This document shows positions 7,015-48,671 of a stretch of DNA of 64,000 nt, piece after piece. The stretch's first letter is position 1, and each line of letters opens with the position of its first letter. Source of the stretch: a virus; IMG/VR virus record IMGVR_UViG_3300023119_001136, positions 1 to 64,000 of that record; one strand, given 5' to 3'. The notes beneath the pieces are model-generated. The model saw only the letters and a program-made list of their open reading frames with translations, did not search any database and was not told the origin of the DNA. The position numbers and the translations under genes were made by a program.

Positions 7015-7376
7015 TGATTTAATTTAATACTGCCAATAGAACCATCTGTCCAACTGTTGACAGTTGCTCTTACCCATACATAATTACCTGTAAAGTTTTT
7101 GATAAAACTACCATCGCTTTCTGTTGTGTCAGTAGCAGTGCTTTCGTGTTCTGTTGTATCTAATGTAAACCAGTCGGCTGTGCTTGGATCTACAGCAAGT
7201 GTTGCTTGCATAACGATTTTGCCAATAAAACCTGTAACAGTATATTGCACACTATGGAAGCCATCACTACGTCCATAGTATCCGTCACCTCTGTATTTGT
7301 CTCCAGTGACAGTTTCAGTTGTGCTATCGCCCGGATGCACTTGATTTGATAATATTGTTTCACTATTACTTGGCAT
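7011..7376 (-). CDS. putative virion structural protein (121 aa)
   Basis: This 121-aa protein has a Ser/Thr/Gly-rich, beta-strand-prone composition. A YRGDGYYGRSDGFHSVQY segment lies near residues 28-45, followed by two strand-rich repeats. Related segments occur in fibre- or capsid-associated proteins of marine T4-like phages, to my recollection. No signal or membrane segment is present. A late promoter box sits 4 nt before the ATG, which supports a virion role, and the adjoining gene upstream is also a beta-rich late protein. Exact position in the particle is unknown. Confidence 0.65.
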   Translation of the reverse strand: MPSNSETILSNQVHPGDSTTETVTGDKYRGDGYYGRSDGFHSVQYTVTGFIGKIVMQATLAVDPSTADWFTLDTTEHESTATDTTESDGSFIKNFTGNYVWVRATVNSWTDGSIGSIKLNH

Positions 7377-7380
7377 AATG

Positions 7381-7388
7381 TATTTACC
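7381..7388 (-). promoter_or_regulatory. late promoter box abutting the 121-aa gene
   Basis: GGTAAATA on the minus strand, then CATT and ATG. The box ends 4 nt before the start codon, with no Shine-Dalgarno. Confidence 0.6.
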
Positions 7389-8183
7389 TTAATTACGTAC
7401 TAAAATTTTAGATATACTTGTTGTAGGATTGCTAGTTGTCTTAAATCTAAGATAACTAAACACACCATTAAAGTTTGTTGGTACAGGTTCTGTTTCGCTA
7501 CCTGTAAGTGTTATTGTAGATACAGTTGTCCAATTATTTGTACCTGTAATTTGATTATCGAGTGTTGCTTGTACTTCTACATCACCAGCATATCCGTTGT
7601 TATATATTGCTACAGTATGTAATGCTTCGTTGCCATTTAAACCAGGGTGTGCTGTAATCTTATCTGCATCGTCATTACCTGCAAACCATTCGTCTGTAAC
7701 TTCTTGCCAGTTAGTTACAGTAATACTATCTTTAGGACCAGGCATAGCATTGCCATCTAAATAAATTGTTCCAGCAGCACCAAAGTCTCTATCATTATAA
7801 GTTACTGTTCTAGTTTGATTAGACTCTAGAATCCAAACAGTGTATGACAAGTACTGTTGATTTACATTTAGTGTATCTGCATCAGTAAATGTAAAAGTAA
7901 AGGTTCCTTTTGTACTTGCTGTTGTGCCGTCGTCTGTAACTGTTGCTGCACGTTCTATAATTTTTGTATTTTCTCTATCAAAAACTGAAACATATACTGA
8001 CTTTCCAAATACGTTTACTGGTTTTTGATCTGCATTAAGCATACGGAATTGAACTGTATTGTCAACTCCTCTATAAATTTTTACTGTTCGTTGATACACT
8101 GGTCTATACTCCACGTTAAACCCGGCATCGTTTGAGATGACTAAAATTTGATCATTTACTAAATATCTAGGTATAAGTTGCAT
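7389..8183 (-). CDS. putative virion protein, beta-rich (264 aa)
   Basis: This 264-aa protein has no catalytic motif. Residues 1-125 look like an Ig-like or baseplate-adaptor fold (alternating strands with TVKIYRGVDNTVQFRMLN). The second half repeats a pattern seen in the next gene (NNGYAGDVEVQATLDNQ followed by Trp and Thr/Ser-rich strands), so the two may share a domain. The ATG has AAGGACC upstream, and a late box (GATAAATA) lies 21 nt before the start, giving this gene a normal leader. A baseplate or fibre attachment role is inferred from composition and late control only. Confidence 0.6.
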   Translation of the reverse strand: MQLIPRYLVNDQILVISNDAGFNVEYRPVYQRTVKIYRGVDNTVQFRMLNADQKPVNVFGKSVYVSVFDRENTKIIERAATVTDDGTTASTKGTFTFTFTDADTLNVNQQYLSYTVWILESNQTRTVTYNDRDFGAAGTIYLDGNAMPGPKDSITVTNWQEVTDEWFAGNDDADKITAHPGLNGNEALHTVAIYNNGYAGDVEVQATLDNQITGTNNWTTVSTITLTGSETEPVPTNFNGVFSYLRFKTTSNPTTSISKILVRN

Positions 8184-8204
8184 TACCAGGTCCTTTACTA
8201 AGTA

Positions 8205-8212
8205 TATTTATC
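8205..8212 (-). promoter_or_regulatory. late promoter box with normal leader
   Basis: GATAAATA on the minus strand, 21 nt upstream of the ATG at 8183. A Shine-Dalgarno (AAGGA) lies between box and start, in contrast to the boxes that abut their ATG. Confidence 0.6.
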
Positions 8213-8220
8213 GAGAGCAC

Positions 8221-12997: not shown

Positions 12998-12998
12998 T

Positions 12999-14462
12999 TT
13001 ATTTCCAATCTACTTTTTCTATAGTGAAAGGATATTGTGCTTCCTTATAGAATTTTTTGCGCTGTGTTAAATGTCTCTTTGCAAATTTGCACGTTGAAGT
13101 GATATCCCAAATTTGTACAAAGTCTTTGTCCTTTGCCTTTCTTACGCCTCTGCCTATAGATTGAATAACTCTTACGAATGATTTGCCTGGTTCTATGAGA
13201 ACAAGATTAAAAATACGAGGAATATTAATGCCGACGGCAGCAACGCCATACGTAGCAATGACCACGTGATTTGTTCCTTCGTTAATTTCGTCATATGCGT
13301 CCTTTCTATCTTTTAATTTTACATCGCCTTTAACAAAAACTGATCCTGGAATAAGTTCTTGTAACATTTCGCCTGCACTAATTCTATCTACTAGAATAAG
13401 TGTATTGCCTGATTCTTTTACACTGTTTAATATTTTGCCTATATATTCTACTCTTTCTTTATTTGTAACTAGATATTTTAATTCTTCTTGATAGTTACTA
13501 TGTGCAACAGTATCCATTAGTTGCACAATATTAACATGACACTGCGCAAGTACGCCCTTGTCTTGTAATTCTTTTGCTGATATTTCACCGATAACTGGAC
13601 CTAAACTTGCATGTATACTTTCAAATTCAAACTTTTCTTTAGGTATAGTTCCTGTTAGTCCCCAACGTATTGGTGCATTTTTTAAGTTACGTGTTAATAA
13701 ATTTTTCAATACTTCCGCTTTTGCTTGATGAACCTCATCAACAATAACGGTGCTCACACCATCTAAGAACTCTGCAAGCGATAGTACTGCGGAACCGTCC
13801 TTGTGCTTCTTGTCAAGTATATTCAAACTTTGCCAAGTGCAGATGGTGTGAGTCTTACCCAACTCTTTTCTATCTCCAAAATAAACCCCTACATCAAGTC
13901 CGCAATTAATGTAATCTTCTTCTGTTTGTGTTACAAGAGATTTGTTTGGTACAATAACAAGACTGCGTCCATACTTTTCACTCATATGTGATAGTGTAGC
14001 AGTTGTAATAGTTTTGCCAGCGCCTGTTGCAATCTGTTGTAGGCTTTGTGGATTGTTTGCAAAGTTGTTGATTGCTTCTACTTGATAGTCACGCAGAATA
14101 ATTTCTTCACCTTCAGCAGGATGTCCTTTGGGCCAACGCACACCTTGGTCAGCCCAGTAGCGTTCCGTTACTTGATCAAAACTTAAATCAATAGGATGTC
14201 GTCTGTCTTCAATGTCAACTATTTGAACATTGTTTTTTGCAAGCACTTCGGTAACAGTATCTAAATGATTAACATAGCCAGTACCGCCGATACCAAAGAA
14301 AGCAACTTTGCCGTCCCACCTGCCAAGTTTATACTGTGGCATATATCGTGCGTATGGCACTTCAAACTTGAGAGCGTTGGAAAGTTTACGGCGTACATCT
14401 ACGTCTAAACCTTCTAGTTTGATGTTTACTTCATCTTCAATAATTAATTTGCAACTAGCCAT
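12999..14462 (-). CDS. uvsW: ATP-dependent helicase UvsW
   Basis: T4 UvsW unwinds branched DNA and R-loops and controls the switch from origin- to recombination-dependent replication. This 487-aa protein is shorter than the T4 one (about 587). Motif I is QIATGAGKTITT near residue 141-152, motif II is VIVDEVHQ, motif III is GLTGTIPKE and motif VI is QSIGRGVRKA. The N-terminal domain before residue 110 is the DNA-binding part. The start overlaps the preceding stop by one base (TAATG). Confidence 0.95.
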   Translation of the reverse strand: MASCKLIIEDEVNIKLEGLDVDVRRKLSNALKFEVPYARYMPQYKLGRWDGKVAFFGIGGTGYVNHLDTVTEVLAKNNVQIVDIEDRRHPIDLSFDQVTERYWADQGVRWPKGHPAEGEEIILRDYQVEAINNFANNPQSLQQIATGAGKTITTATLSHMSEKYGRSLVIVPNKSLVTQTEEDYINCGLDVGVYFGDRKELGKTHTICTWQSLNILDKKHKDGSAVLSLAEFLDGVSTVIVDEVHQAKAEVLKNLLTRNLKNAPIRWGLTGTIPKEKFEFESIHASLGPVIGEISAKELQDKGVLAQCHVNIVQLMDTVAHSNYQEELKYLVTNKERVEYIGKILNSVKESGNTLILVDRISAGEMLQELIPGSVFVKGDVKLKDRKDAYDEINEGTNHVVIATYGVAAVGINIPRIFNLVLIEPGKSFVRVIQSIGRGVRKAKDKDFVQIWDITSTCKFAKRHLTQRKKFYKEAQYPFTIEKVDWK

Positions 14463-19946: not shown

Positions 19947-20613
19947 CCATCATCTCGTATAATTCGTTTTTCCATAGATCGGCAAATTCACAATTACGAT
20001 AATTTTCAAACCATGGACCGCCTTCGGTATAATGAATTAATTTTGGAACATCAATGTCATCGTAAACACCAACAAGATAATTCCAAGTATGATCTAATTC
20101 TCCAATTTCTTCATCATTTAACCAACTAAATCTGTGTAAGTATGCTCCGTTAATTTCTGGATCATTTACTAAGTCTTGTGTAAGTGTAGCATTACTAGGA
20201 TGTGAACAGTTGAACAACATAACACTTGACCAATTTTTACGTGGATAGATAGTTTGTTTTTGCCCGTCCATCTTTGTACCTTCTTTAGGTGTGTAATCAT
20301 GCTTTACACACATTACAGCATATTTGTCATCTGCTTGATCGAATAGTTCTTTAATGTCTGTTGTAAGGATCATGTCGCAATCCATAAACAGTGCCCAGCC
20401 TTTAAAATCTGTAAGTTCAGGGATTAGAAATCTTGTAAATGTAAATTCTGTACTAGCAAGTTTATCTGCCTTTCTTTTATACCAGCCCGAATCTCTTAAT
20501 TCTTGCTGTTTTAGCGGGCGTACATCCGCTCCTGGCTGTTTGCTTAGTATACTATGCTTGCAAACTTGATATGCAATATCTTCTCTAGTATCATAACCTA
20601 CAAATATCTTCAT
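19930..20613 (-). CDS. glycosyltransferase, GT8-like
   Basis: This 227-aa protein begins IFVGYDTREDIAYQVCKHSI, typical of short GT-A enzymes of the GT8 type. It has WALFMDCDMILTTDI near residue 73-87 (DxD) and SSVMLFNCSHP near 129-139. LHRFSWLNDEEIGELDHTWN near 158-177 completes the donor site. The start overlaps the previous stop by one base (TAATG). It is likely cytoplasmic. The transferred sugar is unknown. Confidence 0.75.
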   Translation of the reverse strand: MKIFVGYDTREDIAYQVCKHSILSKQPGADVRPLKQQELRDSGWYKRKADKLASTEFTFTRFLIPELTDFKGWALFMDCDMILTTDIKELFDQADDKYAVMCVKHDYTPKEGTKMDGQKQTIYPRKNWSSVMLFNCSHPSNATLTQDLVNDPEINGAYLHRFSWLNDEEIGELDHTWNYLVGVYDDIDVPKLIHYTEGGPWFENYRNCEFADLWKNELYEMMDDMSL

Positions 20614-21383
20614 TAATCTCTTCTTTCAATATCATCTTCAGTTAGTTCGTCTCCCATCCATACTTCGATAACTTTTGCAGTAATATCGCCTACATTTGTG
20701 GCTTTGTGCCAAGTGTTTACAGGGATATCAATACTGTCTCCTGAGTAGTATGTTTTGTTTTCTCTATCCCCATTTGGATATTCTAAACTCATCATTATTG
20801 TACCTTGTACAATATGCCAATGCTCTGAGCGTACTAAGTGTCTTTGATCGCTAAGGCTTTTACCAACGTCAAACGCAAGTTCTTTTACTTGCCAGCCGCC
20901 GTTTTTATCTAAAATCTTATAAGTGCCCCATGCACGTTGAGTGATTGGTTTATCCCAATTACTAAGAATCCAACTACTTGAATTTTTCTTATTTGTGCCT
21001 CCTACGCCCCAAACAAATTCTACATCTTTTCGATCGCCATATGTTTTCCATTCTGGAGTATTTGTAGCACTGTCTCTATCGCCGCCGTTTGCAAATATAA
21101 TTTTAGAATTTTCAGTTGTTGCCATAGTTTTAAAAATTGCACCACATGCACTGTTATCGCTGTCATCAAATGCAACAATTCTATCAACAAAAGAAAGTTC
21201 GTCTATAATTGCTGCACGTTCTTCAAACGGCATAAAAGGTCTTCCTTTTTTACGTGTTAACCATTCGTCACTATTAATTCCAACAAATAACTTATCACCT
21301 AGTTCTTTTGCTGCTTTCATATAATCAATATGACCTGAATGTAGTGGATCAAAACCACCTGTTACTAATACAATTTTTTCCAT
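20613..21383 (-). CDS. HXGH nucleotidyltransferase fused to MPI-type cupin
   Basis: This 256-aa fusion protein has a first half like HldE-C/TagD sugar-phosphate nucleotidyltransferases: VTGGFDPLHSGHIDYM at residues 7-22 (HxGH), INSDEWLTRKKGRPFMPFEER near 37-58. The second half (about 155-256) matches the cupin of bifunctional mannose-6-phosphate isomerase (ManC/AlgA type): RAWGTYKILDKNGGWQVKEL, KSLSDQRHLVRSEHWHIVQG and IDIPVNTWHKATN. One chain may isomerise a sugar phosphate and activate it. A TATAAATA box ends 4 nt before the ATG and no Shine-Dalgarno is present. Confidence 0.8.
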   Translation of the reverse strand: MEKIVLVTGGFDPLHSGHIDYMKAAKELGDKLFVGINSDEWLTRKKGRPFMPFEERAAIIDELSFVDRIVAFDDSDNSACGAIFKTMATTENSKIIFANGGDRDSATNTPEWKTYGDRKDVEFVWGVGGTNKKNSSSWILSNWDKPITQRAWGTYKILDKNGGWQVKELAFDVGKSLSDQRHLVRSEHWHIVQGTIMMSLEYPNGDRENKTYYSGDSIDIPVNTWHKATNVGDITAKVIEVWMGDELTEDDIERRD

Positions 21384-21387
21384 ACTG

Positions 21388-21395
21388 TATTTATA
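21388..21395 (-). promoter_or_regulatory. late promoter box abutting the fusion gene
   Basis: A full TATAAATA on the minus strand, then CAGT and ATG. It would start transcription at or inside the start codon and lies inside the glycan island, so part of the island is under late control. Confidence 0.75.
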
Positions 21396-21999: not shown

Positions 22000-22548
22000 T
22001 TAAACAAAACGTATTCGATATTTTCTACTTTTTTGTTGTGCAACAATTTCGTCTAAAATCTGTATGTTCTCTTGAGATTCTATATTACGTATGTCCATAA
22101 TAATAAAACTGTTTTCATTTGTATGTTTGTTAACAATTTCCATGTATGTATTTGCAGGATAATGAAATCCACAACTTAAAAAACTATAAACAAGATCAAA
22201 TGTTACATTTTCATCTATTTGAATATTGTTTGCATCTACAAAATTATATTGCATATTTTGACTATCGTAATAACGTTTTAAGTCTGTAATTTTATTATAA
22301 AAAGACATGTTTTCAACAGACCCGTATCTAACTTGTCTAGTGCCATTGCTTTCAGAAAATTCACCATCTAGTAAATATAATTCACTTCCGTATTTTTCTT
22401 GAAATAATTTTGATTCAGTAGCAAAGCCACATCCTATATCAAGGATACATTTAGGTTTAAATTTAATATAGGAATCAACTATATTAAAATTTACAGTCTT
22501 TCCGTGAATGTAATCATCACGTGTCCAAAATTCTTGCCAAGTAATCAT
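22000..22548 (-). CDS. class I SAM-dependent methyltransferase
   Basis: This 182-aa protein has the SAM motif CILDIGCGFATESKLF near residues 35-50, an acidic strand end LYLLDGEF near 57-64 for the ribose, and FDLVYSFLSCGFHYP near 118-132. These fit a Rossmann-fold methyltransferase. A CGTAAATA box ends 4 nt before the ATG, partly within the stop of the upstream gene. The target is most likely a sugar, judging by the neighbouring transferases, but small molecules or proteins are possible. Confidence 0.75.
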   Translation of the reverse strand: MITWQEFWTRDDYIHGKTVNFNIVDSYIKFKPKCILDIGCGFATESKLFQEKYGSELYLLDGEFSESNGTRQVRYGSVENMSFYNKITDLKRYYDSQNMQYNFVDANNIQIDENVTFDLVYSFLSCGFHYPANTYMEIVNKHTNENSFIIMDIRNIESQENIQILDEIVAQQKSRKYRIRFV

Positions 22549-22551
22549 ATT

Positions 22552-23310
22552 CTATTTACGCCTATTTTTACGTAAAAAATCATTTATTTGCTGATGTGTC
22601 ATGTCAAATTTTTCTTTAAATCTTTGAAAATATTCTTTTTTATTTGCTTTGAAATATTCTTTTTGTGTATGCTCGCCTCTACCTTCTCTAAATGTGCTAT
22701 TTCTATACCAATCTATACTTAATAATGGCGTAGTAAATTCATCCCAACCTGCATTTAAATTATACATACGCATATCTTCAGTTGCACCTTGACCGTGATG
22801 ATATGTAACATCATACCAGCCGTGTTTTTTTCTTTTTAATTCACTAATATATTTTGTATTCCATATAGTAAATATAGGCTGTGCAAACATAGGATTTTTA
22901 ATAAAATTATCAACGCCTATTTGTTCAGGTATAGCAACATCTATCCAACCATCAACATTTTCTATTTTAGAATATATTGCACTCCATTTTTCTTTCTTTA
23001 GAGATTTTGTAGTCTTTACAATAGTTTTTTTATAGTTTTGTTTTAATAATGTTGCACTAGTGGTAATAGTAACAAAGAAAGATTTTCTTTGATTTATTTC
23101 CCTATCAAAAATTACTCTATAAGCGCCGCTTACTTTCCTATTTGTTGGTAATGGAATTCTAGTTTTAGGATGCATGGGTTCTTTGTCAGAACCGTTATCT
23201 AGTATATAGATATCTTCTTCTAACATTGATCTACAAAGCATACGATATATTTTATCTGTATGCTCTGGCATATTATAGTTTATGATATAGGTATTAAAAG
23301 AGTCCGACAT
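22552..23310 (-). CDS. glycosyltransferase-like protein (252 aa)
   Basis: This 252-aa protein begins FNTYIINYNMPEHTDKIYRML with YILDNGSDKEP near residue 34-44, a GT2-like opening (strand, then D-x-GS). YRVIFDREINQRK and HGWYDVTYHHGQGATEDMRM later fit donor-binding and acceptor loops. The C-terminal 50 residues are highly basic (Lys/Arg/Phe). No DxD triad is clear. It overlaps the next gene by 17 nt. A glycosyltransferase role is likely, though weaker than for its neighbours. Confidence 0.55.
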   Translation of the reverse strand: MSDSFNTYIINYNMPEHTDKIYRMLCRSMLEEDIYILDNGSDKEPMHPKTRIPLPTNRKVSGAYRVIFDREINQRKSFFVTITTSATLLKQNYKKTIVKTTKSLKKEKWSAIYSKIENVDGWIDVAIPEQIGVDNFIKNPMFAQPIFTIWNTKYISELKRKKHGWYDVTYHHGQGATEDMRMYNLNAGWDEFTTPLLSIDWYRNSTFREGRGEHTQKEYFKANKKEYFQRFKEKFDMTHQQINDFLRKNRRK

Positions 23311-30196: not shown

Positions 30197-31753
30197 TTAT
30201 ACTCCTGCTAACGCTTTAATTGCGTCTGTTTCAGGATGCATACTATTGTTTAATTCTTCAGCCTTACGTTGCGCAACCATAGCCTCTACTTTTTTAATCA
30301 TTTTAGCGGCAGGTTTGACATATTCGTCGCCGTAATCTTTTTGCACCGCAGTTAATACTGCTGTCTCGCCTTTTGGAAATTTGCCTGTTTCTCTGTCAAA
30401 ATAACTTAGAATAAATTCTCCAATTGGTGTTTTTGGTTTTTGTTGCATAGGCTCTTGATCGGGCGGAGCAATAGTCATTGTTGGCATATCATCTGATTCT
30501 GGAACGGCACTTGCCATTTCTTTACAATCTGAACATCTACCATGCCCGTCATAAACATCCATAATCGGAGCGCCGCAACAATTGCTTACCATTCCTTCTT
30601 CGTTTTCATCGCCTGGTGAATATGCTTCTTTTTCATCATCATCATTGCCTTCAGCAAATTGTCCCATTAGGGCATTAATTGCTGCTTCTAACATATCATT
30701 GATTGATTCTTGTTTTGCTTTTTCCTTACGTTCTTCAGCCTCTACACTAGCACTTTCTTCGCCTAGTAAATCATCTGGACCTAATTCTTCTGGCTTCATT
30801 GATTCGCCTACTAAGTTATAGATATAAGGAAATACATCTTTTAGTTCTTCGTTGAACTGTTTGATTGTAAGTTGATCAATCCAGCTATCTGCAATATCTT
30901 CCGGAACTTCTTTTGCTTCTGTTTCTACAAAATTTTCTTTAGCCTGTAAATAGTGTGATTCTTTTTGTAAATTTTGTATTGTTTTTCTAACTTCGTTTAC
31001 TCTTTCACTTACTACATCCATGTAGCCTGCTAAACTTTCAGCCATTACACTTGAACGATTCATATACTTTTTAAATGAATTAAGTTTACTTAATTCTTCT
31101 GACAAACCGGAGATATATTTGCCAAACGAATCATACGCATTACCACCTTCACTAACATGTCTTGCCATTGCTCTTGCACCGCTTAGATGTATAAAAGGAT
31201 ATTTAAATCTTTCTCCATCTGCACTTTCAATGTAGATTGCGCCAATCTTTTTTGTACGATTTTCACCTTCTTCAATTGGTGCTGTATGTTTAATAGCAAG
31301 TCTTGCATTACCTATTTTTTGATAACTTGTTTTGTTAGTTCCATACATTCTTGATTCTGACATGGGATTCTCCGATTTGCGATTTGTGGCTAAAAAGTCA
31401 TAATCTCTTTTGTTTAGATTTGATTTATTAATGTCTCTTACTGAAAACTTCATGAGCCTTTTTTTAGCAAAAGTACGTAATTCTTTAAGAAAATTATACC
31501 ATTCTGTTTGTACATTTTGCTCTTCGTTTGATACAATATCTCTGCCTACAATTACTACCAGTCCTTCGTCAGTATCTAAATTGATACTTACTTTGCCTAA
31601 ATCACGTCCTTCATTATAATAACCAAAATCAAAAAAACGTGCTTCTGTAGGTTCGTTGGTTATTTCACCGTTTTCGTTGCCAATTGTTACGCTAGGAAAA
31701 CGACCTCTAATTTTATTAAATAGGTCAGATGCTATATTGTCAAAGTTCTGCAT
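30197..31753 (-). CDS. unknown virion-region protein with zinc ribbon (518 aa)
   Basis: I chose ATG 31753; a TTG five codons upstream would place the late box inside the gene. The 518-aa protein has no known catalytic motif. The N-terminal 120 residues are mixed alpha/beta, with KFSVRDINKSNLNKRDYDFLA. The middle is helical and charged. A small zinc-ribbon-like segment (NCCGAPI, then CSDCKE 14 residues on) lies near residues 407-428. It sits between gp17 and gp32 and has a late promoter, so it may be a head or packaging protein. Confidence 0.6.
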   Translation of the reverse strand: MQNFDNIASDLFNKIRGRFPSVTIGNENGEITNEPTEARFFDFGYYNEGRDLGKVSINLDTDEGLVVIVGRDIVSNEEQNVQTEWYNFLKELRTFAKKRLMKFSVRDINKSNLNKRDYDFLATNRKSENPMSESRMYGTNKTSYQKIGNARLAIKHTAPIEEGENRTKKIGAIYIESADGERFKYPFIHLSGARAMARHVSEGGNAYDSFGKYISGLSEELSKLNSFKKYMNRSSVMAESLAGYMDVVSERVNEVRKTIQNLQKESHYLQAKENFVETEAKEVPEDIADSWIDQLTIKQFNEELKDVFPYIYNLVGESMKPEELGPDDLLGEESASVEAEERKEKAKQESINDMLEAAINALMGQFAEGNDDDEKEAYSPGDENEEGMVSNCCGAPIMDVYDGHGRCSDCKEMASAVPESDDMPTMTIAPPDQEPMQQKPKTPIGEFILSYFDRETGKFPKGETAVLTAVQKDYGDEYVKPAAKMIKKVEAMVAQRKAEELNNSMHPETDAIKALAGV

Positions 31754-31758
31754 AGTAT

Positions 31759-31766
31759 TATTTATC
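31759..31766 (-). promoter_or_regulatory. late promoter box abutting the 518-aa gene
   Basis: GATAAATA on the minus strand, then 5 nt and ATG at 31753. It overlaps the last codons of gene 17. No Shine-Dalgarno is present. Confidence 0.65.
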
Positions 31767-33351
31767 AATAGTTGCTGCTAATAAAGATAGGCATTGGGGG
31801 TTCGTAATCTTCTTCTCCAGCCCCGTCCATTTGTGAAAAAGAATTATAAATGTTTACATCCCAATCTTTCATTACATTTATCATACGTAATGCAAGAAGC
31901 ATACTGCTGACTAAGTCATCTGTTTGACCCGGCTTTGCTTGATAACTGCTTCCTGTTGCAACATAGTTTTTTAGTTCTGATATAAATGGTTTACTACGAA
32001 CAATAAGTTTATTATTTTCTATCATAGTTTTCATTCTAGCACATGCAGTAACTTTTGCACTGTGCGTTGTATTAAATCCTTTACGGAATTTACGAACATG
32101 TCCTTTTCTAATAGGTTCACTAATAAACAACCCAGGTATCTGCTCTTCACCTAGATCAGCAATAACAAGTAGTGCTGCTTCACCTAATCCGTTATTTTCA
32201 ACACTCCAATATATACCGTTATCAGTTTTTCTTTCTGTTTCTAAGTACGTGCAAATATCTCGAAGCACTCTAATTTGTCCAGGAATACCTGTTGTATTAT
32301 GTTGCCATTCTCCTACTTGTTCGTATGTAGGTAATTCTACGATCTGTATTGCTGCATTATCACCTCCTGTGCCCATTGAAGGATCTAATGCAATAGCATA
32401 ATTATACTTGGCATTAGGTTTTTTATACCAACGAGTTTGCCCCATATTAATTGTAGGCGAAACGCCTTCCATGGTTGCAAGATGTAAACTTGCTATAAGT
32501 GTTTCGTCAAATACTAAGAATTCACAACCATATTCTCTACGGAAGCGCTCTTCTCCAATACGTCCAATTTCGTCTTCTTTCCATTTTTCATCACGGTCAG
32601 GATGCTCGTCCCAGTTTGCAAGAAAACTATGAAATCCGTTTCTTCCTGTTTCGCTTTCGTTTCCGAACTCGTCAAATTTATCTTCTGCTAGTTTCCAAAT
32701 ATTAGCAAACGTATCTTCGTCTGAGTTTGGCGTGCTTGTTATAATAGCACGACCACCTGTTGCTAGTGTAGGTGATATTGAAGTCCAAAATTCATCTGCA
32801 ATGTTAGGTTGCACAAATGCAAACTCGTCACAATATAGTAACGAAATAGACATACCGCGTCCAGTAGTGCCTGTTGTTGTTTGGCTTACTATACGTGATC
32901 CATTTTCAAATTCTATTGAGCCCTTATTATAGGATACAACACCTGCTCTAATATGATCAGGACATAATTCATATACATAACGAATACGCTGCATAATTTC
33001 TTGTGCACCTGTATATTTGTGTGCAGCAATTAGAATAGTTTGATCAGGATTAAACATTGCATACCAAGCAAGATAGATAGCAGCACAAGTAGTTTTTCCT
33101 GTTTGTCTAGGCATCATGTTTATATTAAATCTATAACTGTGATAGGAATGCATTAAGCGCAATTGATACTCATAGGGTTCAAATAACAATTTGCCTTTTA
33201 CAGGATGTTGAATGTAAGCAAATTGTCTTGCAAAGTACAGATATCCTTCATCAGGATCCATGCAATTCATGAGATCCTGTATTTGGTTTTCGTTAAATGT
33301 TTCTTGCTTATTAGCCTTTTTGACTAATACTCCGTCAAGTGATTTACTCAT
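31765..33351 (-). CDS. 17: terminase large subunit gp17
   Basis: This packaging motor pumps DNA into the prohead and cuts it. I chose ATG 33351; a GTG five codons upstream would put the late box inside the gene. The 528-aa product (T4: 610) has the ATPase Walker A MMPRQTGKTTCAA near residue 79-91, Walker B SLLYCDEFAF near 165-174 and the nuclease domain starting AIALDPSMGTGGD near 330-342 with further Asp residues (DDLVSSMLLAL) near 485. A terminator hairpin and late box lie just upstream. Confidence 0.95.
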   Translation of the reverse strand: MSKSLDGVLVKKANKQETFNENQIQDLMNCMDPDEGYLYFARQFAYIQHPVKGKLLFEPYEYQLRLMHSYHSYRFNINMMPRQTGKTTCAAIYLAWYAMFNPDQTILIAAHKYTGAQEIMQRIRYVYELCPDHIRAGVVSYNKGSIEFENGSRIVSQTTTGTTGRGMSISLLYCDEFAFVQPNIADEFWTSISPTLATGGRAIITSTPNSDEDTFANIWKLAEDKFDEFGNESETGRNGFHSFLANWDEHPDRDEKWKEDEIGRIGEERFRREYGCEFLVFDETLIASLHLATMEGVSPTINMGQTRWYKKPNAKYNYAIALDPSMGTGGDNAAIQIVELPTYEQVGEWQHNTTGIPGQIRVLRDICTYLETERKTDNGIYWSVENNGLGEAALLVIADLGEEQIPGLFISEPIRKGHVRKFRKGFNTTHSAKVTACARMKTMIENNKLIVRSKPFISELKNYVATGSSYQAKPGQTDDLVSSMLLALRMINVMKDWDVNIYNSFSQMDGAGEEDYEPPMPIFISSNY

Positions 33352-33355
33352 ACAA

Positions 33356-33363
33356 TATTTAGT
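33356..33363 (-). promoter_or_regulatory. late promoter box abutting gene 17
   Basis: ACTAAATA on the minus strand, then TTGT and ATG at 33351. It follows the terminator hairpin directly, so gene 17 restarts transcription here. Confidence 0.65.
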
Positions 33364-33364
33364 C

Positions 33365-33391
33365 ACAAAAATAGCGCCCTAAGGCGCTATT
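33365..33391 (-). terminator. intrinsic terminator upstream of gene 17
   Basis: A perfect 9-bp stem (AATAGCGCC with GGCGCTATT, 33370-33378 and 33383-33391) closes a 4-nt loop. On the minus strand the stem runs straight into a TTTTT run at 33366-33370, a typical rho-independent terminator. It separates the Ala/Gly-rich gene from gene 17. Confidence 0.85.
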
Positions 33392-34516: not shown

Positions 34517-35062
34517 TTAACCTCCTATAACACTTTCTGTGTTTTGTGGCTCTTCTTTAACTGGTTCTGCTTTGTGTGCATTACCTTCTTGTTTTTCTTT
34601 ACGAGCAGTTTCTAATTCTTTTAAAAGATCCATTATTCTTTTTTCGCCTACTTGATCTTGTGCAGATTCGCCTTCTAATTCTTCTGTAGTTAGCATAGGC
34701 TCATATGTTTTTTCTTCTACTTGTTCTTGATATGCTTCTTGTGCTTCTCCTGGACTGCGTACAATTACGTATCCTGGCTGACATGCACAGCATTGTTCAA
34801 TATATTCCTGTAATATTAAAGTAGTAGTTGGGTAGCCTAATTCACACTCCCAATAAGTTACTTCCATATTTTCTAGTTGTGGGAAATCTAATGGACGTTC
34901 TTGAATAGGTGTTTTTTTACCTGAACTGCAATTTGCTACTTCAAATTTTCCTAAACACGCTTTCATTTGAGATTCAAAATCGTCAGCCAAATCACCTGCT
35001 ACTCCTATTTTAAAAGGATAGGTTTTCTTGGCTTCTGTTAAATATTCTTTAAATTGTTTCAT
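34517..35062 (-). CDS. conserved hypothetical protein (181 aa)
   Basis: This 181-aa protein has an alpha/beta front ([21 protein letters not shown]) and a Cys-containing middle ([20 protein letters not shown], then CCACQ near residue 92-96), followed by a long Glu/Lys-rich tail that is probably disordered. The IGVAGD start and Cys cluster could suit a small metal or nucleic acid binder. A GATAAATA box lies 24 nt upstream with AGGA between. It is located between gp16 and the Ala/Gly-rich gene, so a virion assembly role is inferred. Confidence 0.65.
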
Positions 35063-35085: not shown

Positions 35086-35583
35086 TTATTTATCCTTATC
35101 CATGCCTTTTAACTTTTCTAGTAGGCTATTTCTGTCAGTTACAACATAGCCGTCACCTTCTGTAAATCCATGGTCGATAGTATCGCTATCTAGTTTTTGT
35201 TTCTTAAGTTGCAATTCTATCATTTTTAATTTTTTATCAATTTTAGCAGTCTTTGCATCTAGGTTTGTTTTAAGCATTGTGCCTGCAACTTCAAATACTC
35301 TACCAGAATAACGTGACTCAACATTCATACCTAAATCCATTAGATCTTCATATGCTTGCATTGCTTTATCAGCAACCTCATTAAGTTCAGTATCTGCCAT
35401 TTCCCCTAGTCCTTTTACAGCGGGTAATGCACTTGCTATCTTATCAAATTCTTCTATGTCTCGAAAAGTTTGCTCTTGTTGTACAAGTGCTTGCTTATCT
35501 TCTTTTCTTTGTTGACGTTCTTGCTCTTTGATTATTTCTTTTGAATCTGGCAAGTTTAAAAGATCTTCTAGTTTTTTACTCAT
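35086..35583 (-). CDS. 16: terminase small subunit gp16
   Basis: gp16 recognises DNA and stimulates gp17. This 165-aa protein is the size of T4 gp16 (164). The N-terminal helical, Gln/Glu/Lys-rich section (residues 15-45) and the core YSGRVFEVAGTMLKTNLDAK near 91-110, followed by a long coiled coil (KIDKKLKMIELQLKKQKLD), match the small-subunit oligomerisation domain. A late box ends 4 nt before the ATG. The gp4 gene ends 8 nt upstream, and the late box lies across that gap. Confidence 0.8.
   Translation of the reverse strand: MSKKLEDLLNLPDSKEIIKEQERQQRKEDKQALVQQEQTFRDIEEFDKIASALPAVKGLGEMADTELNEVADKAMQAYEDLMDLGMNVESRYSGRVFEVAGTMLKTNLDAKTAKIDKKLKMIELQLKKQKLDSDTIDHGFTEGDGYVVTDRNSLLEKLKGMDKDK
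35087..35094 (-). promoter_or_regulatory. late promoter box for the 181-aa gene
   Basis: GATAAATA on the minus strand, inside the end of gene 16 and 24 nt upstream of ATG 35062, with an AGGA ribosome site in between. Confidence 0.55.
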
Positions 35584-35587
35584 ATAA

Positions 35588-35595
35588 TATTTAGC
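35588..35595 (-). promoter_or_regulatory. late promoter box abutting gene 16
   Basis: GCTAAATA on the minus strand, then TTAT and ATG at 35583. It overlaps the end of gene 4. No Shine-Dalgarno is present. Confidence 0.65.
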
Positions 35596-39325: not shown

Positions 39326-39781
39326 CTACGCTACATATCCAGGGGCAACATATCCCGGAGTTATGTATCCACTTGTTTCTTCTGTTGGTTCTGGTAACAA
39401 TGGAAAATCAAAGCCGTCGACGTTTCGTGCTTCAAAATTATTTGTTACGTCTACATCTGCTTTGAATCCTAATTTTGTTATAGAACTTCTACTGTTATTT
39501 AATATGACTGCTACTAAATTTGTTAATTGTACTTTATCATAGCCTTTTAAAGTATCTAATAAATCAAAAACAGGTATTCCATCTGCTTTTGCTTGTGAAA
39601 GTATGACTGATGCTATGCTTATAGAAGCAACTTCTTCAAATCCTCTTTTGACAAAAAATCCTACTACTGCATCGATATCTGCCGCATTATAATGAAGTGA
39701 TCTATCAAAGAATGAATTAAAAGTTCTTCTTGTGTCTAAATTACTATCATTTACTACTGTTATGTTTTCATAAGTAGACAT
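39326..39781 (-). CDS. putative virion protein (151 aa)
   Basis: This 151-aa protein has a helical core (FFVKRGFEEVASISIASVIL, then LLDTLKGYDKVQL) and an extended C-terminus ending in GYITPGYVAPGYVA, a Gly-Tyr repeat often found in linkers at fibre ends. Its gene lies between the tube-like and fibre genes, overlapping the former by one base. No name is recalled. The repeat tail suggests contact with the fibre encoded next. Confidence 0.6.
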   Translation of the reverse strand: MSTYENITVVNDSNLDTRRTFNSFFDRSLHYNAADIDAVVGFFVKRGFEEVASISIASVILSQAKADGIPVFDLLDTLKGYDKVQLTNLVAVILNNSRSSITKLGFKADVDVTNNFEARNVDGFDFPLLPEPTEETSGYITPGYVAPGYVA

Positions 39782-40992
39782 TATGCAGATTCCTGTCTAG
39801 GAACAACATAAGTTTTTCCGTTTACATTTACTAATTTTTCATTTTTGTTATCGTAACTGCCCTTAAAGGGTCTTGAGTTAGCAGGTAAATTATCTGTTAA
39901 ATCGGTTCTTTGTTGTGCAGATCTTTGTTCTGCTCCTGCTGCTTTTATATCTGCCCAATTAATACCACCTTGACCTTGCTGATTTATTCCTCTAGATGTA
40001 AGTCCTTGATTTACAATAGGTTGTAAACCTAATCTATCTAGATTTAATTTATCTCCTAAAAATTTAGAAGCAGATGTTTTTATAAAATTTTGTGCAAATG
40101 CTTCTATAGAATTAGTTCTTCCTTTTTGCGGAGACACACTTCCAAACGGTGTAGTTGTAACTCTACTGGTGCCAAAACTACTGCCTCCTTCTTGTATAGG
40201 ACTTGGTCTAGTATCATAGTGTCTTTGATCTCCAAAAGATGTAGGTGCTACACCTTCTAATAGTTCTCCTCTTTCGTAATGAACTGTTTCGTATGCTACT
40301 GTCATTGAATTAGTTGAAAATTCACTTCCTTCTGATTGCACATTATCGTGTTGGAAATCTTCTACTAATGGATTAATTAGTGTAAAGCATGTATAGTGTG
40401 TTTTTTTATTCAAAGGATGCAATTGGAAAATTTGAATAGAATCAAAAAATTGATACATTTTATTTGGTTTATCTAAACCATATCTGTAATTAAAGTTTTG
40501 AAAATATGTATTATTAGATCCAAATGCACTTCTTCTATATCTTTCGTCTGGAGCAATATCTGGTGCTGCTGAAGCACTTTGTTTTTGATGATCGCCGTCT
40601 GCATAATAATATCTAAAATATGCTTCCCACAACAATGTTGTTAGCCCTGCATTATCATCATGAAATTCAATTCTTACTGGCTGATAATCTATTCTTGTTT
40701 GTAAAAGTTTTTTTCTATTATACTGATTTAAAACTTCTACTTGTGGTCTATATTTTGGCAGTTCTGCACTTTTTGCTAAAATATGAATGTCTTCTTGTGT
40801 AAAATTATCAATGAGCGTGTCTGGTCTAACATCTGGGTTTATATTCAAAACTACATGATAGAGAAACTTGTGCTTAGGAGCAAGACGCATATTGTTAGAG
40901 CGGAATACTCTAGATGCATGATCATAATCGCCTAAATTACCTTTAGGACCATTATAGCTTTTAATATTATCAAAAAATCCTGTGAACGCCAT
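39781..40992 (-). CDS. tail-tube-like baseplate/tube-initiator protein (403 aa)
   Basis: Residues 30-230 resemble a tail tube fold: FRSNNMRLAPKHKFLYHVVL, a LAKSAELPKYRPQVEVLNQY block near 92-111 and RIDYQPVRIEFHDDN near 119-133. A polar Gln/Ser/Gly-rich C-terminal arm follows. Tube-initiator proteins (T4 gp48/gp54 type) share such cores, so that role is possible. It lies next to tube gp19 and has its own late promoter 4 nt before the ATG. The paralog-like relation to gp19 is weak at sequence level. Confidence 0.6.
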   Translation of the reverse strand: MAFTGFFDNIKSYNGPKGNLGDYDHASRVFRSNNMRLAPKHKFLYHVVLNINPDVRPDTLIDNFTQEDIHILAKSAELPKYRPQVEVLNQYNRKKLLQTRIDYQPVRIEFHDDNAGLTTLLWEAYFRYYYADGDHQKQSASAAPDIAPDERYRRSAFGSNNTYFQNFNYRYGLDKPNKMYQFFDSIQIFQLHPLNKKTHYTCFTLINPLVEDFQHDNVQSEGSEFSTNSMTVAYETVHYERGELLEGVAPTSFGDQRHYDTRPSPIQEGGSSFGTSRVTTTPFGSVSPQKGRTNSIEAFAQNFIKTSASKFLGDKLNLDRLGLQPIVNQGLTSRGINQQGQGGINWADIKAAGAEQRSAQQRTDLTDNLPANSRPFKGSYDNKNEKLVNVNGKTYVVPRQESA

Positions 40993-40996
40993 ACTG

Positions 40997-41004
40997 TATT
41001 TATC
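40997..41004 (-). promoter_or_regulatory. late promoter box abutting the tube-like gene
   Basis: GATAAATA on the minus strand, then CAGT and ATG at 40992. It lies just after the gp19 terminator. No Shine-Dalgarno is present. Confidence 0.7.
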
Positions 41005-41022: not shown

Positions 41023-41054
41023 GATAATAAAAAAGGGAACCGAAGTTCCCTTTT
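41023..41054 (-). terminator. intrinsic terminator after gene 19
   Basis: Minus strand: AAAAGGGAAC, loop TTCG, GTTCCCTTTT, then more T (stem 41031-41040 and 41045-41054). The UUCG tetraloop and the following T run make a textbook rho-independent terminator. It separates the gp19 message from the next late promoter. Confidence 0.9.
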
Positions 41055-41077: not shown

Positions 41078-41695
41078 TTAACCAGTTGTACCAGTTCCAA
41101 TTGTTCTAGGAACTGCTGCTCCTACTCCTTCACCATTTGGTGTTTGTACAGCATTATCATACTGTATTGTAACTGATGTTTGTACTGGTTCACTGTTTGC
41201 ATATGCTAAGGAATTATAGTTGACTTCTGTTAAGTAGCAACCATAAATTTCCCAAGTTTCTAACACACCTGCTTCTGCTGCTCCATTACCGCCATCTAAA
41301 ATTTCAATGTTAGTTTGGAACTTATAATCAATACCAGATGCAGCACTTGCTTGATTAATAAAGTCAAATTGTTTCTGAAGTTGTTCGCCAACTAGTTTTT
41401 GCACACTGTTGTTTACATCTTCACGTAATGTAATTGTAATTGGGTTCCATGTGTGTTTACCTGCCAAATGTACAGTTGAATTGTATACCGGAATTGGCAT
41501 GTTTTCGAACGTCAAGTTCGGTCTTGCAGCATCGATAACTTGTTTGGTTAATTCAGTAGTTGATGCAGTAACGCCAAAGTTAATAAAGTTTACTCTAAAA
41601 CGGTATTGTAGTTTTGGCATTAACAAGCCTTCAGATGTTGCACTCTGGTCGCTTGCTAATGGAACACTTAATTTTGTTAATGATGAGATTGCCAT
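41078..41695 (-). CDS. 19: tail tube protein gp19
   Basis: gp19 forms the inner tube through which DNA passes. It has 205 aa, longer than T4 (163) but usual for marine relatives. Blocks: LQYRFRVNFINFG near residue 29-41, ENMPIPVYNSTVHLAGKHTW near 64-83, PITITLREDVNNSVQKLVGE near 85-104 and LETWEIYGCYLTEVNYNSL near 142-160. An AGGAG site precedes the ATG, and a GATAAATA box lies 23 nt upstream of the start. It is followed by a strong terminator. Confidence 0.93.
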   Translation of the reverse strand: MAISSLTKLSVPLASDQSATSEGLLMPKLQYRFRVNFINFGVTASTTELTKQVIDAARPNLTFENMPIPVYNSTVHLAGKHTWNPITITLREDVNNSVQKLVGEQLQKQFDFINQASAASGIDYKFQTNIEILDGGNGAAEAGVLETWEIYGCYLTEVNYNSLAYANSEPVQTSVTIQYDNAVQTPNGEGVGAAVPRTIGTGTTG

Positions 41696-41718: not shown

Positions 41719-41726
41719 TATTTATC
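41719..41726 (-). promoter_or_regulatory. late promoter box of gene 19
   Basis: GATAAATA on the minus strand, 23 nt upstream of ATG 41695, with an AGGAG ribosome site in between. Confidence 0.65.
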
Positions 41727-45221: not shown

Positions 45222-45243
45222 CAAGGATAACTTAGGAGGCATC

Positions 45244-45519: not shown

Positions 45520-45996
45520 TTGTTTAAGCCAAACATTGTTTGTACCAACATCGTAATCTACTATCAGTTCGTTTACTGCTTGATAAACACCTGCATAATC
45601 AATATCATGACCAGTTAACCAGCCACCTTTTTTAACCTTAGGTGTATATGCTCTTATGTCTCTGCACACCCAAGGATAACTGTGATCTGCATCTATAAAA
45701 ACTAAATCTTGAGAATTATCAGGAATATTTTTTGCACAATAATCGCTTAATCCTGCAAACGGTTTTAGCCTATCTCCGTACTTTTCTTGGATTTGTTTAT
45801 TATAAAACCCTCTAATACTTTTATCTATTGCGTAAATCACAAGATCGGGATTATTATCTAATAAATGAAATGTTGTTCTGCCATCTCTTACACCTACTTC
45901 GGTCATTGTTTTAATATTGTGTTTTTTTATCCACCAATTTAAAAAATGTTTTCTATTAGGTTTTCCTGTGTATTCAATTGTCTGATCTAAATTCAT
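45514..45996 (-). CDS. class I methyltransferase (Methyltransf_24-like)
   Basis: This 160-aa protein has the SAM fold: MTEVGVRDGRTTFHLLD near residue 31-47, LVIYAIDKSIRG near 52-63, LVFIDADHSYPWVCRDI near 98-114 and GGWLTGHDIDYAGV near 124-137. The FIDADHS and GHD blocks are typical of the Methyltransf_24 family. It overlaps the next methyltransferase-like gene by 4 nt. The target could be a sugar or a virion protein. The gene pair sits between gp13 and gp18. Confidence 0.8.
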   Translation of the reverse strand: MNLDQTIEYTGKPNRKHFLNWWIKKHNIKTMTEVGVRDGRTTFHLLDNNPDLVIYAIDKSIRGFYNKQIQEKYGDRLKPFAGLSDYCAKNIPDNSQDLVFIDADHSYPWVCRDIRAYTPKVKKGGWLTGHDIDYAGVYQAVNELIVDYDVGTNNVWLKQL

Positions 45997-46685
45997 TTCA
46001 TACCTATCCGCATAAATCTTGTATATTTTGTTAAAGATAATTCTCCTTCATAAAAAACGTGCATAGGTGTTTGTTCAGCAAATGTTTGTAAATTAGAAAC
46101 ACAATTTATATGCTGTTCGTGTTCGTAATAGTTATTATTTTGTAATGCAACTATTGTGCCTGATGGAATGTCGTCATACCATTGCGTAAAATCTTCTATA
46201 TGTTCACAACTTGTATTGATAATTGTATTAGGCATTTCAGTTAGTTCTAAACTTGTACCGTTTGCCCTAAAAGTTTCATGTGTAGTAGGATATGTCATTT
46301 TTCTAATATCTAATGTGCTTGCTTTAAATTGCCAGCCATCCATTACATATGGTCGATTAATATTATCAGCAACATCTGCACAACTTGGATCTATATCAAA
46401 GCTTCTAATCTTTTCAAACTTATCAGGAATGTATTCAAACATCATACCTGCAAGGGTGCCAAACCAGCCTGCACATATAAAAACTGTACCCATATCATTG
46501 GGTAAGTTTTCTACCATCCATTTTTTACTTTTCAATTGTCCTAAACTATACGCATCTACCATTGCATATTCAACTTCAGGAAATTTATGTAAAGTCCTTT
46601 TAAGTTGAGACACAGTTACGTTTTCAGGGTATAAAAATTCTAAACCGTTTAGGAATTGAATTACACTGCTGCTAAATTGTTGCAT
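45993..46685 (-). CDS. methyltransferase-like protein (230 aa)
   Basis: This 230-aa protein resembles SAM-dependent enzymes, with FICAGWFGTLAGMMFEYI near residue 69-86 in place of the usual glycine loop, IRSFDIDPSCADVADNINR near 92-110 and NTIINTSCEHIEDFTQWYD near 152-170. The Gly loop is present but changed. Such proteins recur in marine T4-like phages, to my recollection. A TATAAATA box ends 4 nt before the ATG, so it is expressed late. The substrate is unknown. Confidence 0.65.
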   Translation of the reverse strand: MQQFSSSVIQFLNGLEFLYPENVTVSQLKRTLHKFPEVEYAMVDAYSLGQLKSKKWMVENLPNDMGTVFICAGWFGTLAGMMFEYIPDKFEKIRSFDIDPSCADVADNINRPYVMDGWQFKASTLDIRKMTYPTTHETFRANGTSLELTEMPNTIINTSCEHIEDFTQWYDDIPSGTIVALQNNNYYEHEQHINCVSNLQTFAEQTPMHVFYEGELSLTKYTRFMRIGMK

Positions 46686-46689
46686 AGTG

Positions 46690-46697
46690 TATTTATA
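46690..46697 (-). promoter_or_regulatory. late promoter box abutting the methyltransferase-like gene
   Basis: A full TATAAATA on the minus strand, then CACT and ATG at 46685, with no Shine-Dalgarno. It lies in the short gap after gene 13. Confidence 0.75.
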
Positions 46698-46710
46698 TTA
46701 AATGCGTAGT

Positions 46711-47472
46711 TTATCCTATAACAAAACTATAACCTGTGCCGCCTGCAACATTTAATGCTGCTTCTGCGTCAAGTTTTTCCATTTCTGCTTGCGCTTCTGC
46801 TTTTAAACTTGCACCGTTTAAACTAGTACCACCTTGTGGTCCTGCAATTGTTGCAAACTTTTCACGTGCTTCGCCTAACATATACTTACATGCTGCTAAT
46901 GTATAATCTTTGATCCATTGCTTTGAAAGATAGTCTTCTAGCAATTGCGAGTCAGGACGGAAATTGTAGCAATACAACAAAATTTCTTCATCTGCTCTTG
47001 GACGTTGTAGTATTGTTAACTTTTTTGTAGGACTATTCCATGTAAATTCTATAAAGGAACCAAACATTCTACCTACCAATTCTTGATAACTTGCAAACAT
47101 GTAGTAAGTTGCGAGGCCGCCTACAGCAGAACTTGCTAACAAATATGTATTAGTATATGCAAGATTAAATGGCTCGTATAGTGTTCCGCCATCACCTCCA
47201 GCAGATCTACTACCTACACTTCTTCTAAAACACTGTCTTACTTCTTGTATTTCATTTGGAAGAATATAATCATTTTGATCTTCAACTAAAGTTAATGTGA
47301 CATAACTTTCTTCTACACTATGATCAACACGCTGTCTATACCTACTAAGTGCCTTTGTTAAAGCAGTTTCATAGTGTATTGGATCAAGTTCAACATCGAC
47401 CATACCGCCACCTAAAAAGGCTTTTACATAGTCGAAAATTTCTTGTTTTTGTTCAATGTAGTTTGCTGCCAT
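46711..47472 (-). CDS. 13: neck protein gp13
   Basis: gp13 joins gp14 to close the filled head and receive the tail. The start is ATG 47472 (GGAG 9 nt upstream); the longer frame runs through the divergent promoter. The product has 253 aa (T4: 309). Blocks: YIEQKQEIFDYVKAFLGGGM near residue 5-24, ELDPIHYETALTKALSRYRQ near 28-47 and YVTLTLVEDQNDYILPNEIQ near 57-76, then an Arg-rich EVRQCFRR. It diverges from gene 14 on the plus strand. Confidence 0.88.
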   Translation of the reverse strand: MAANYIEQKQEIFDYVKAFLGGGMVDVELDPIHYETALTKALSRYRQRVDHSVEESYVTLTLVEDQNDYILPNEIQEVRQCFRRSVGSRSAGGDGGTLYEPFNLAYTNTYLLASSAVGGLATYYMFASYQELVGRMFGSFIEFTWNSPTKKLTILQRPRADEEILLYCYNFRPDSQLLEDYLSKQWIKDYTLAACKYMLGEAREKFATIAGPQGGTSLNGASLKAEAQAEMEKLDAEAALNVAGGTGYSFVIG

Positions 47473-47489
47473 AAAAGTTCTCCGTATTG

Positions 47490-47511
47490 TATTTATTCGT
47501 TGCGATAAATA
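47490..47511. promoter_or_regulatory. divergent pair of late promoter boxes for genes 13 and 14
   Basis: Minus strand: AATAAATA (47490-47497), 17 nt before the gp13 ATG with a ribosome site. Plus strand: GATAAATA (47504-47511), 5 nt before the gp14 ATG without one. The 44-nt gap holds both, so the two neck genes are turned on together in opposite directions. Confidence 0.75.
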
Positions 47512-47516
47512 TATGT

Positions 47517-48671
47517 ATGCCACGCTTAAGCTTATATAGACCAAATAAAACAAATGATTATACATTTTTAGATGATGTAATTAGAGAACAATTTTACATC
47601 GGTGGCACCGACGTGAATGTACACAAATATCTAGGACCAAGAAATCCTACAGAAGAAGAAGCAACAGCAGAACAGCCACGTTATGATGCAGTTAAAGAGA
47701 CTAACATTCAAGATATGCTGTTCTTGGAAAACAGAGATAGAAAATACGATCAAGATATCTACACAATACGTGGCATTTATAATGTAATAGATAACGATTT
47801 TAATCTAAGTCAGTTTGGATTGTTTTTAAGCAATGATACATTGTTTATGACTATACACATAAATGAAAGTGTAAAAACACTTGGTAGAAAAATTATGGCA
47901 GGTGATGTATTTGAACTGCCTCACTTAAAAGACGAATATGCTGCAAATGACTATAGTGTTGCACTAAAACGTTTTTATGTAGTTGATGAAATTACTCGTG
48001 CAGCAGAAGGTTTTTCACAGACTTGGTATCCTCATTTATATAGAGTTAAACTAAAACAAATATTTGATTCACAAGAGTTTAAAGATATACTGGATTTACC
48101 TGCAGGTGATGATGCTGATAATACTTTACGTGATGTACTAAGCACATTTGAAACTGAAATGAATATTAATAATGCTATTGTACAACAAGCAGAAGCAAAT
48201 GCAAAAGCCGCAGGATATGAAACAAGTCACTTTTTTACAGTAGCAGTAGATGATGACGGCGTACCTACATTGAGGACAGCAGATTCAACAGAAATAGATG
48301 CAAGTGGCAGTGAACTTTCAGATTCTATCTTAGATACTCCTATACGTGATGGTTATGACGGCTATCTAATAGGAGACGGACTTGCACCAAATGGTTCGCC
48401 TTTTGGTAGTGGGTTATCATTTCCTGACGCAAGTGCATCAGGAGATTACTTTTTGAGAACAGACTTTTTTCCAAATAGACTATTTAGATATGATGGGAGA
48501 AGATGGGTGAAAGTTGAAGATAACGTAAGACAAACACTAACTAACACATCAACAAGAGCGCATCAGAAAGGTACGTTCATTAATAACACAAACACAAGCA
48601 CTATTGGCGGTGAAGTTGTTGAAGAAAGACAATCACTATCAAAAGCATTAAAGATAAAGACGGATAACTGA
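47517..48671 (+). CDS. 14: neck protein gp14
   Basis: gp14 partners gp13 at the head-tail junction. I chose ATG 47517; the TTG start 30 nt earlier would put the promoter inside the gene. The 384-aa product is longer than T4 gp14 (256). The N-terminal part (MPRLSLYRPNKTNDYTFLDD and EQFYIGGTDVNVHKYLGP) and the EDRKYDQDIY-like turn match the family. The C-terminal extension (residues about 300-340) carries GDYFLRTDFFPNRLFRYDGR, a W module like those in gp18. Confidence 0.9.
   Translation: MPRLSLYRPNKTNDYTFLDDVIREQFYIGGTDVNVHKYLGPRNPTEEEATAEQPRYDAVKETNIQDMLFLENRDRKYDQDIYTIRGIYNVIDNDFNLSQFGLFLSNDTLFMTIHINESVKTLGRKIMAGDVFELPHLKDEYAANDYSVALKRFYVVDEITRAAEGFSQTWYPHLYRVKLKQIFDSQEFKDILDLPAGDDADNTLRDVLSTFETEMNINNAIVQQAEANAKAAGYETSHFFTVAVDDDGVPTLRTADSTEIDASGSELSDSILDTPIRDGYDGYLIGDGLAPNGSPFGSGLSFPDASASGDYFLRTDFFPNRLFRYDGRRWVKVEDNVRQTLTNTSTRAHQKGTFINNTNTSTIGGEVVEERQSLSKALKIKTDN

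Follow-up and report, generated by a model that had tools for sequence, protein, structure and literature searches.

A T4-type late promoter box adjoining the start codon suggests leaderless late messages in a lineage of jumbo phages

Background

Leaderless messenger RNAs (mRNAs) are known in bacteria and phages, with lambda cI, P2 V and mycobacteria as examples. The present work concerns a virus sequence of 64,000 nucleotides (nt), hereafter the window, which is part of a 74,083-base IMG/VR record (IMGVR_UViG_3300023119_001136) and in which a late promoter box of the T4 type ends 4 or 5 nt ahead of the ATG of nine genes. Judged from its sequence context, this gp55-type late promoter is very probably positioned so that some of the late genes are transcribed into mRNAs with no leader or almost none.

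The late box of T4 spans positions -13 to -6, as given in passages of PMC1524935. The late promoters of phiKZ carry the motif TATG, the G of which is the transcription start site (TSS), and phage transcripts in general are often leaderless, according to passages of PMC5312081. Late-promoter prediction was unsuccessful in pelagimyophages (passages of PMC7029224), a failure for which the close spacing described here may partly account. In the phage Melnitz, 15 late promoters were counted, the box-to-start distances being absent from the available passages of that article (PMC9004378), and a 2025 pelagiphage transcriptome study covers other phages, the term “transcription start” being absent from its available text (PMC12753301). 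Leaderless late genes in T4-like phages are not described in the available passages of PMC10504331, PMC3037559, PMC2988020, PMC2704228, PMC5780444, PMC3014915, PMC7403470 and PMC12753301, and no account of them appears among the matches listed from the open-access literature, subscription journals being outside this scope.

Results and discussion

Late boxes adjoining the start codons of nine window genes

Among the named phages listed, the terminase of the window is nearest to those of PA5oct, a jumbo phage of Pseudomonas, and its relatives (53% identity), then to those of Sinorhizobium phage Phosso (46%), Cronobacter GAP32 (43%) and Escherichia 121Q (40%), which places the window in a T4-like jumbo lineage. 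The initial annotation had listed eight late boxes ending 4 or 5 nt before an ATG; a letter-by-letter reading bears out all eight gaps and adds a ninth site, at 22548, which had been overlooked. The gap is 4 nt at the genes starting at 7376, 21383, 33351, 35583, 40992 and 46685, all on the minus strand, and 5 nt at 31753 (minus) and 47517 (plus). The strict NATAAATA is found at five of the eight sites first listed, the second base deviating in the three others (7376, 33351 and 35583).

On the minus strand, box GGTAAATA (7381-7388; box, gap and start at 7376-7388) precedes a 121-aa virion-protein-like gene at 7011-7376, and box TATAAATA (21388-21395; element 21383-21395) a cytidylyltransferase/mannose-6-P-isomerase-like gene at 20613-21383. 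The ninth element (22548-22560, minus, 4-nt gap) has the box GCGTAAATA, the site being also written GCGTAAATAGAATATG, and opens a 182-aa gene at 22000-22548 with a weak methyltransferase match. Box GATAAATA (31759-31766; element 31753-31766) leads into a virion structural gene at 30197-31753, and box ACTAAATA (33356-33363; element 33351-33363) into the gene of the terminase large subunit gp17 at 31765-33351, a label of the initial annotation that stands. Its gp16 label for the gene at 35086-35583, behind box GCTAAATA (35588-35595; element 35583-35595), has a weak terminase small subunit match (E 0.00044). Further along, box GATAAATA (40997-41004; element 40992-41004) precedes a tail-tube-like gene at 39781-40992, and box TATAAATA (46690-46697; element 46685-46697) a gene at 45993-46685 that lies directly after gp13 and has no match in PHROGs or Pfam. 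On the plus strand, box GATAAATA (47504-47511; element 47504-47519) opens the gene at 47517-48671, called gp14 at first, whose product matches in PHROGs only phrog_11591, “virion structural protein”; this promoter stands back to back with that of the divergent gp13.

Gene starts were taken as first-ATG calls, giving 60 in the window, mostly from non-overlapping open frames of at least 90 codons. TAAATA lies 4-5 nt before nine of these 60 starts; 5000 random circular shifts average 0.058 such starts and never exceed 3, and ten control AT hexamers average 0.40, again with no more than 3. Every TAAATA-N4/5-ATG string in the window (9/9) opens a gene. A Shine-Dalgarno (SD)-like tetramer, defined as GGAG, GAGG or AGGA at -18 to -4, is absent from all nine genes, as had been noted for the eight first listed.

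The leadered late genes first listed for comparison have distances within the 17-39 nt originally given for them: on the minus strand, gp13 has the box AATAAATA (47490-47497) 17 nt before its ATG at 47472, with GGAG in between; the gene at 8183 has GATAAATA (8205-8212) at 21 nt; the tail tube gene gp19 has GATAAATA (41719-41726) at 23 nt from its ATG at 41695, with AGGAGA; and the gap of gp18 is 39 nt. A further leadered control starts at 35062, 24 nt after GATAAATA (35087-35094).

Two distance classes that follow gene families

The distance d between the TAAATA-type box and the ATG was counted in the window together with 80 IMG/VR loci related to it (the window lineage), d4-5 being called the close class and d13-40 the leadered class. 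The histogram of TAAATA before the first ATG, proposed at the outset as a check, has a sharp peak at the expected place: 95 occurrences at d4 and 132 at d5 are followed by 11 at d6-12 and by a second, broad maximum around 20-27 nt. The 227 close-class sites are spread over 16 gene families. Counted as distinct sites in the 80 loci, the distribution is bimodal, with 140 at d4/5, one at d6, seven at d7-12 and 164 at d13-40, and the d4-5 peak is also sharp in three large related contigs. Starts at d4-5 number 9, 13, 14 and 15 in the window and the genomes G001, G002 and G003, respectively, against means of 0.40-1.60 per genome and a maximum of 7 for ten control AT hexamers. G002 (256,558 bases) has a terminase identical to that of the window, and the window sites recur in it, all shifted by 11,007 bases; it is therefore taken as near-identical and is not counted as independent evidence. 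G004, G005, Agrobacterium phage Atu_ph07 and Sinorhizobium phage phiM12 are outside the histograms.

Within the window lineage the distance class follows the gene family. The close class accounts for 52/53 members of the 40992 family, 23/25 of the 21383 family, 60/81 of gp17 and 54/81 of the 31753 family, and the leadered class for 63/66 of the 35062 family and 51/52 of the tube gene family (41695). Twelve distinct gp17 upstreams have no TAAATA, of which ten show GATAAGTA at that position and two an apparent misplaced start. The arrangement had initially been called a distinct rule of gene organisation; that description holds to the extent that class follows family in this lineage, with exceptions in the 35583 (gp16-like) family, where 3 of 62 loci have the box at 4 nt and 59 are leadered, in gp48 and in a second, more mixed clade. 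This second clade comprises 80 environmental loci (L347-L426) retrieved with the PA5oct terminase, and its distinct sites number 90 at d4-5, 16 at d6, 38 at d7, 9 at d8 and 150 at d13-40. Counted with the window, it has 34 close and 11 leadered cases of 81 for gp17, 32 and 23 of 79 for the 31753 family, and 12 and 14 of 47 for the 40992 family.

Signals around the start codon

Over upstreams of at least 30 nt, a pyrimidine directly precedes the ATG in 99.3% of the 145 distinct upstreams at d4/5, whereas the figures are 51.5% for the 478 upstreams that lack a box and 38.8% for the 152 leadered ones; in the second clade the proportion is 0.93 of 91 close upstreams. At close spacing the in-frame codon is ATG in 113 cases at d4 and 145 at d5, GTG and TTG being outside the eight commonest codons. 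Conversely, ATG stands 4-5 nt after only 2/124 and 2/139 leadered boxes (two sets), so that the promoter motif does not simply include it.

Since the T4 box lies at -13 to -6, the sixth base past the box would be +1, which at a gap of 5 nt is the A of the ATG. Base 6 is also where a pyrimidine-purine step is most frequent after leadered boxes, both in the window lineage (0.57 vs 0.39 expected, n=127) and in the second clade (0.41 vs 0.32 expected, n=143); in the named phages bases 5 and 6 are tied at 0.36 each (n=217).

SD-like tetramers occur in 22/227 close-class upstreams of the window and its relatives, in 148/233 leadered ones and in 324/671 without a box. Because the box occupies about -11 to -5, any tetramer of this kind in a close-class gene would fall upstream of it or inside it. 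None is found in the 91 close upstreams of the second clade, nor in its 63 upstreams at d6-8. Intrinsic terminators within 70 nt, counted over upstreams of at least 70 nt, precede 112/227 close-class sites, 1/231 leadered sites, 36/648 others and 2/227 shuffled sequences. In the window, one such terminator (33363-33390, minus; stem-loop at about 33371-33390, then a T-rich tail) lies immediately upstream of the gp17 box, and another, with a TTCG loop (41023-41054, minus; stem-loop at about 41031-41054), precedes the promoter of 40992.

A homologue of the late sigma factor gp55 was found in G001 and G002, and no match to it in the 64-kb window or in G003, either of which may be a fragment. With this factor, a gp55-type holoenzyme would open the promoter at the 8-bp box (-13 to -6) and begin transcription at the A of the start codon, give or take about one base. 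The host ribosome would then start the leaderless mRNA through 5'-AUG recognition, with no SD helix. The remaining late genes have this box at 13-40 nt from the ATG, in most cases along with an SD. The pyrimidine at -1, the ATG, the scarcity of SDs, the terminators and the conservation by family within the lineage fit RNA starting at or near the ATG and support the initial proposal of a late class of leaderless messages.

Alternative explanations

Several observations weigh against this interpretation. The loci are related, so that the site counts are not independent. The second clade ties genes less firmly to one class, and distances of d6-d8 are frequent there (63 distinct upstreams). At a gap of 4 nt, the strict T4 rule would place +1 on the T of the ATG, so that a shift of one base is required. 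gp33 and gp45 were unmatched in the jumbo genomes, where the pelagiphage-type profiles may be too narrow, as 121Q, Vibrio 2.275.O and PA5oct were also unmatched. Upstream terminators are confined to 5 of the 16 close-class families, gp17 and 40992 among them, and are present at two of the nine window sites only. Six of these nine genes (7376, 21383, 22548, 31753, 35583 and 46685) begin 3-35 nt behind a same-strand gene. Finally, the late box shares bases with the stop codon of the preceding gene at 22548 (22552-22558), at 31753 (31759-31767), where that gene is gp17, and at 35583 (35588-35595), where the TAA within the box is the stop codon itself.

The last two points suit an alternative in which the late promoters are real and the proteins come mainly from read-through mRNAs, by translational coupling or a farther-upstream SD, the short-leader RNA being minor: ribosomes terminating within the box could restart at the adjoining ATG. 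Coupling is inapplicable to 33351 and 40992, because terminators lie upstream of them, and to 47517, because its neighbour is divergent. The preference of terminators for close-class over leadered sites and the rarity of SDs also argue against it, and the 99% pyrimidine at -1 would have no reason unless RNA starts there. We therefore regard read-through as an improbable main source of these proteins.

RNA could also start a few bases earlier, leaving ultra-short leaders of 1-4 nt, with translation still independent of an SD. The d7 sites of the second clade lend this some colour, as the base 5 after the box is an A in 39 of 42 occurrences, which suggests that these particular sites would give 3-nt leaders; d7 also occurs in nine loci of the window lineage, all examples viewed belonging to the 31753 family. 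For the close class proper, the near-strict pyrimidine directly before the ATG at both d4 and d5, and a T4 start rule that falls on the A at d5 (passages of PMC1524935), make such leaders very improbable.

That TAAATA near the ATG is an A/U-rich enhancer of translation initiation and no promoter would fit its AT-rich composition and its position. The same extended box, however, serves SD-bearing genes from 13-40 nt upstream, G at -8 being present in 64-73% of each distance class, and its position is locked at 4-5 nt. Among ten other AT hexamers, ATAAAT and AAATAT overlap the box by sequence and peak with it, and the remaining eight have at most 4 hits at d4 and d5 together, against 227, so that we give an enhancer very little credence. 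Hardly any weight attaches to the idea that the assigned ATGs, which are sequence-based first-ATG calls, are wrong and that the real start is a later codon with its own leader, since N-termini are similar from the assigned ATG in the examples viewed and the deposited, themselves predicted, starts of HTVC008M, Mosig and Melnitz agree (11/11, 6/6 and 3/3).

Spread among other phages

By the same count, close-class starts number 12 in HTVC008M, 6 in Mosig, 3 in Melnitz and one in PA5oct; Phosso has two in the 389,473 of its 469,473 bases that were covered, and none was counted in T4, Syn9, 121Q and Vibrio 2.275.O. The deposited starts cited above come from RefSeq for HTVC008M, in the annotated stretches examined (the start at 142360 lying outside them), and from GenBank for Mosig and Melnitz. 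Leaderless or near-leaderless late genes, as read from box position, look common in the uncultured relatives, though PA5oct itself has one. In HTVC008M (L232), the ATGs at 18916 (minus) and 18943 (plus) are 26 bp apart, with overlapping divergent late boxes that leave no space for a leader.

Among relatives of the HTVC008M gp48 region (59 loci, L250-L308; L249, HTVC008M itself, excluded), distinct sites number 59 at d5, 13 at d6, 3 at d7-12 and 6 at d13-40. The 20 more distant loci (L309-L328) have 5 at d5, 6 at d6-12 and 24 at d13-40, and the 18 Syn9-like loci, which include Syn9 itself (L329), no close and 31 leadered sites. The gp48 gene itself belongs to the close class in HTVC008M and to the leadered class in Mosig and Melnitz.

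G003 contains, at 126450-135299, a curli-type cassette (CsgF, CsgG, a curlin-like protein and a cyclase) in a jumbo phage, with 44-62% identity to the cassette of HTVC008M and Melnitz. The curli cyclase start is close-class in G003, HTVC008M and Melnitz, and since the cassette is shared, the arrangement may spread by gene exchange among aquatic phages.

A further extension would be that T4-like phages infecting aquatic bacteria with small genomes generally divide their late regulon into a leaderless and an SD-led branch, and that this strategy has evolved repeatedly; to us this seems unlikely. Were it general, the split could let a phage set gene dosage, and some late proteins could keep being translated despite changes to initiation factors or to SD-dependent initiation at the late stage of infection. 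A copy-number rule, with low-copy proteins in the close class and tube and sheath leadered, was considered and rejected; it fits the window lineage in part and is contradicted by the tail-tube-like 40992 and the mixed gp48. A ribosome switch based on bS21 is unsupported for the window lineage, since a search of the window's 74-kb record, G001 and G002, records which may be fragments, gave no match to bS21. Genes for bS21 are present in 6 of the 15 phage records searched (G003 at 121276-121425, W02, W03, W05, W06 and W09); a search of genome contigs with the G003 bS21 gave eight distant loci of unrelated taxa, and no host is claimed.

A first, sigma70-type class of leaderless messages (TATAAT 6 nt before the ATG), implied by the initial wording of a “second” class, is marginal at most, with four genes in G003 and one in the window, and was not adopted. 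TATAAT lies 6 nt ahead of the ATG of a DnaB-like helicase gene at 2863 (minus) in the window and at 13870 (minus) in G002.

If the late messages are leaderless as proposed, promoter position alone would determine the mode of translation of a phage late gene, and HTVC008M in SAR11 would be a cultured system in which to test leaderless translation in bacteria that are among the commonest. Promoter searches that require a leader and gene callers that require an SD may misjudge close-class genes.

Comparison with known systems

The late promoters of T4, served by gp55, gp33 and gp45, resemble those of the window in their 8-bp AT box ahead of virion genes, and near relatives of the window have a gp55 homologue; by the same count, however, T4 has 31 boxes at 13-40 nt and no close-class start. 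Known leaderless mRNAs, such as those of lambda cI, P2 V and mycobacteria, share the fixed short promoter distance, the AUG start and the lack of an SD, whereas the present case would involve a phage late sigma factor and a subset of one regulon. The late promoters of phiKZ likewise have a short motif able to touch the start codon, used by a different, multisubunit polymerase and with the TSS at the G rather than the A. The pelagimyophages HTVC008M and Mosig and the OM43 phage Melnitz are Kyanoviridae of 141-147 kb and, unlike the window with its mostly d4 sites, have d5 at 20 of 21 sites; they nevertheless share with it the close class itself, at 12, 6 and 3 genes, respectively.

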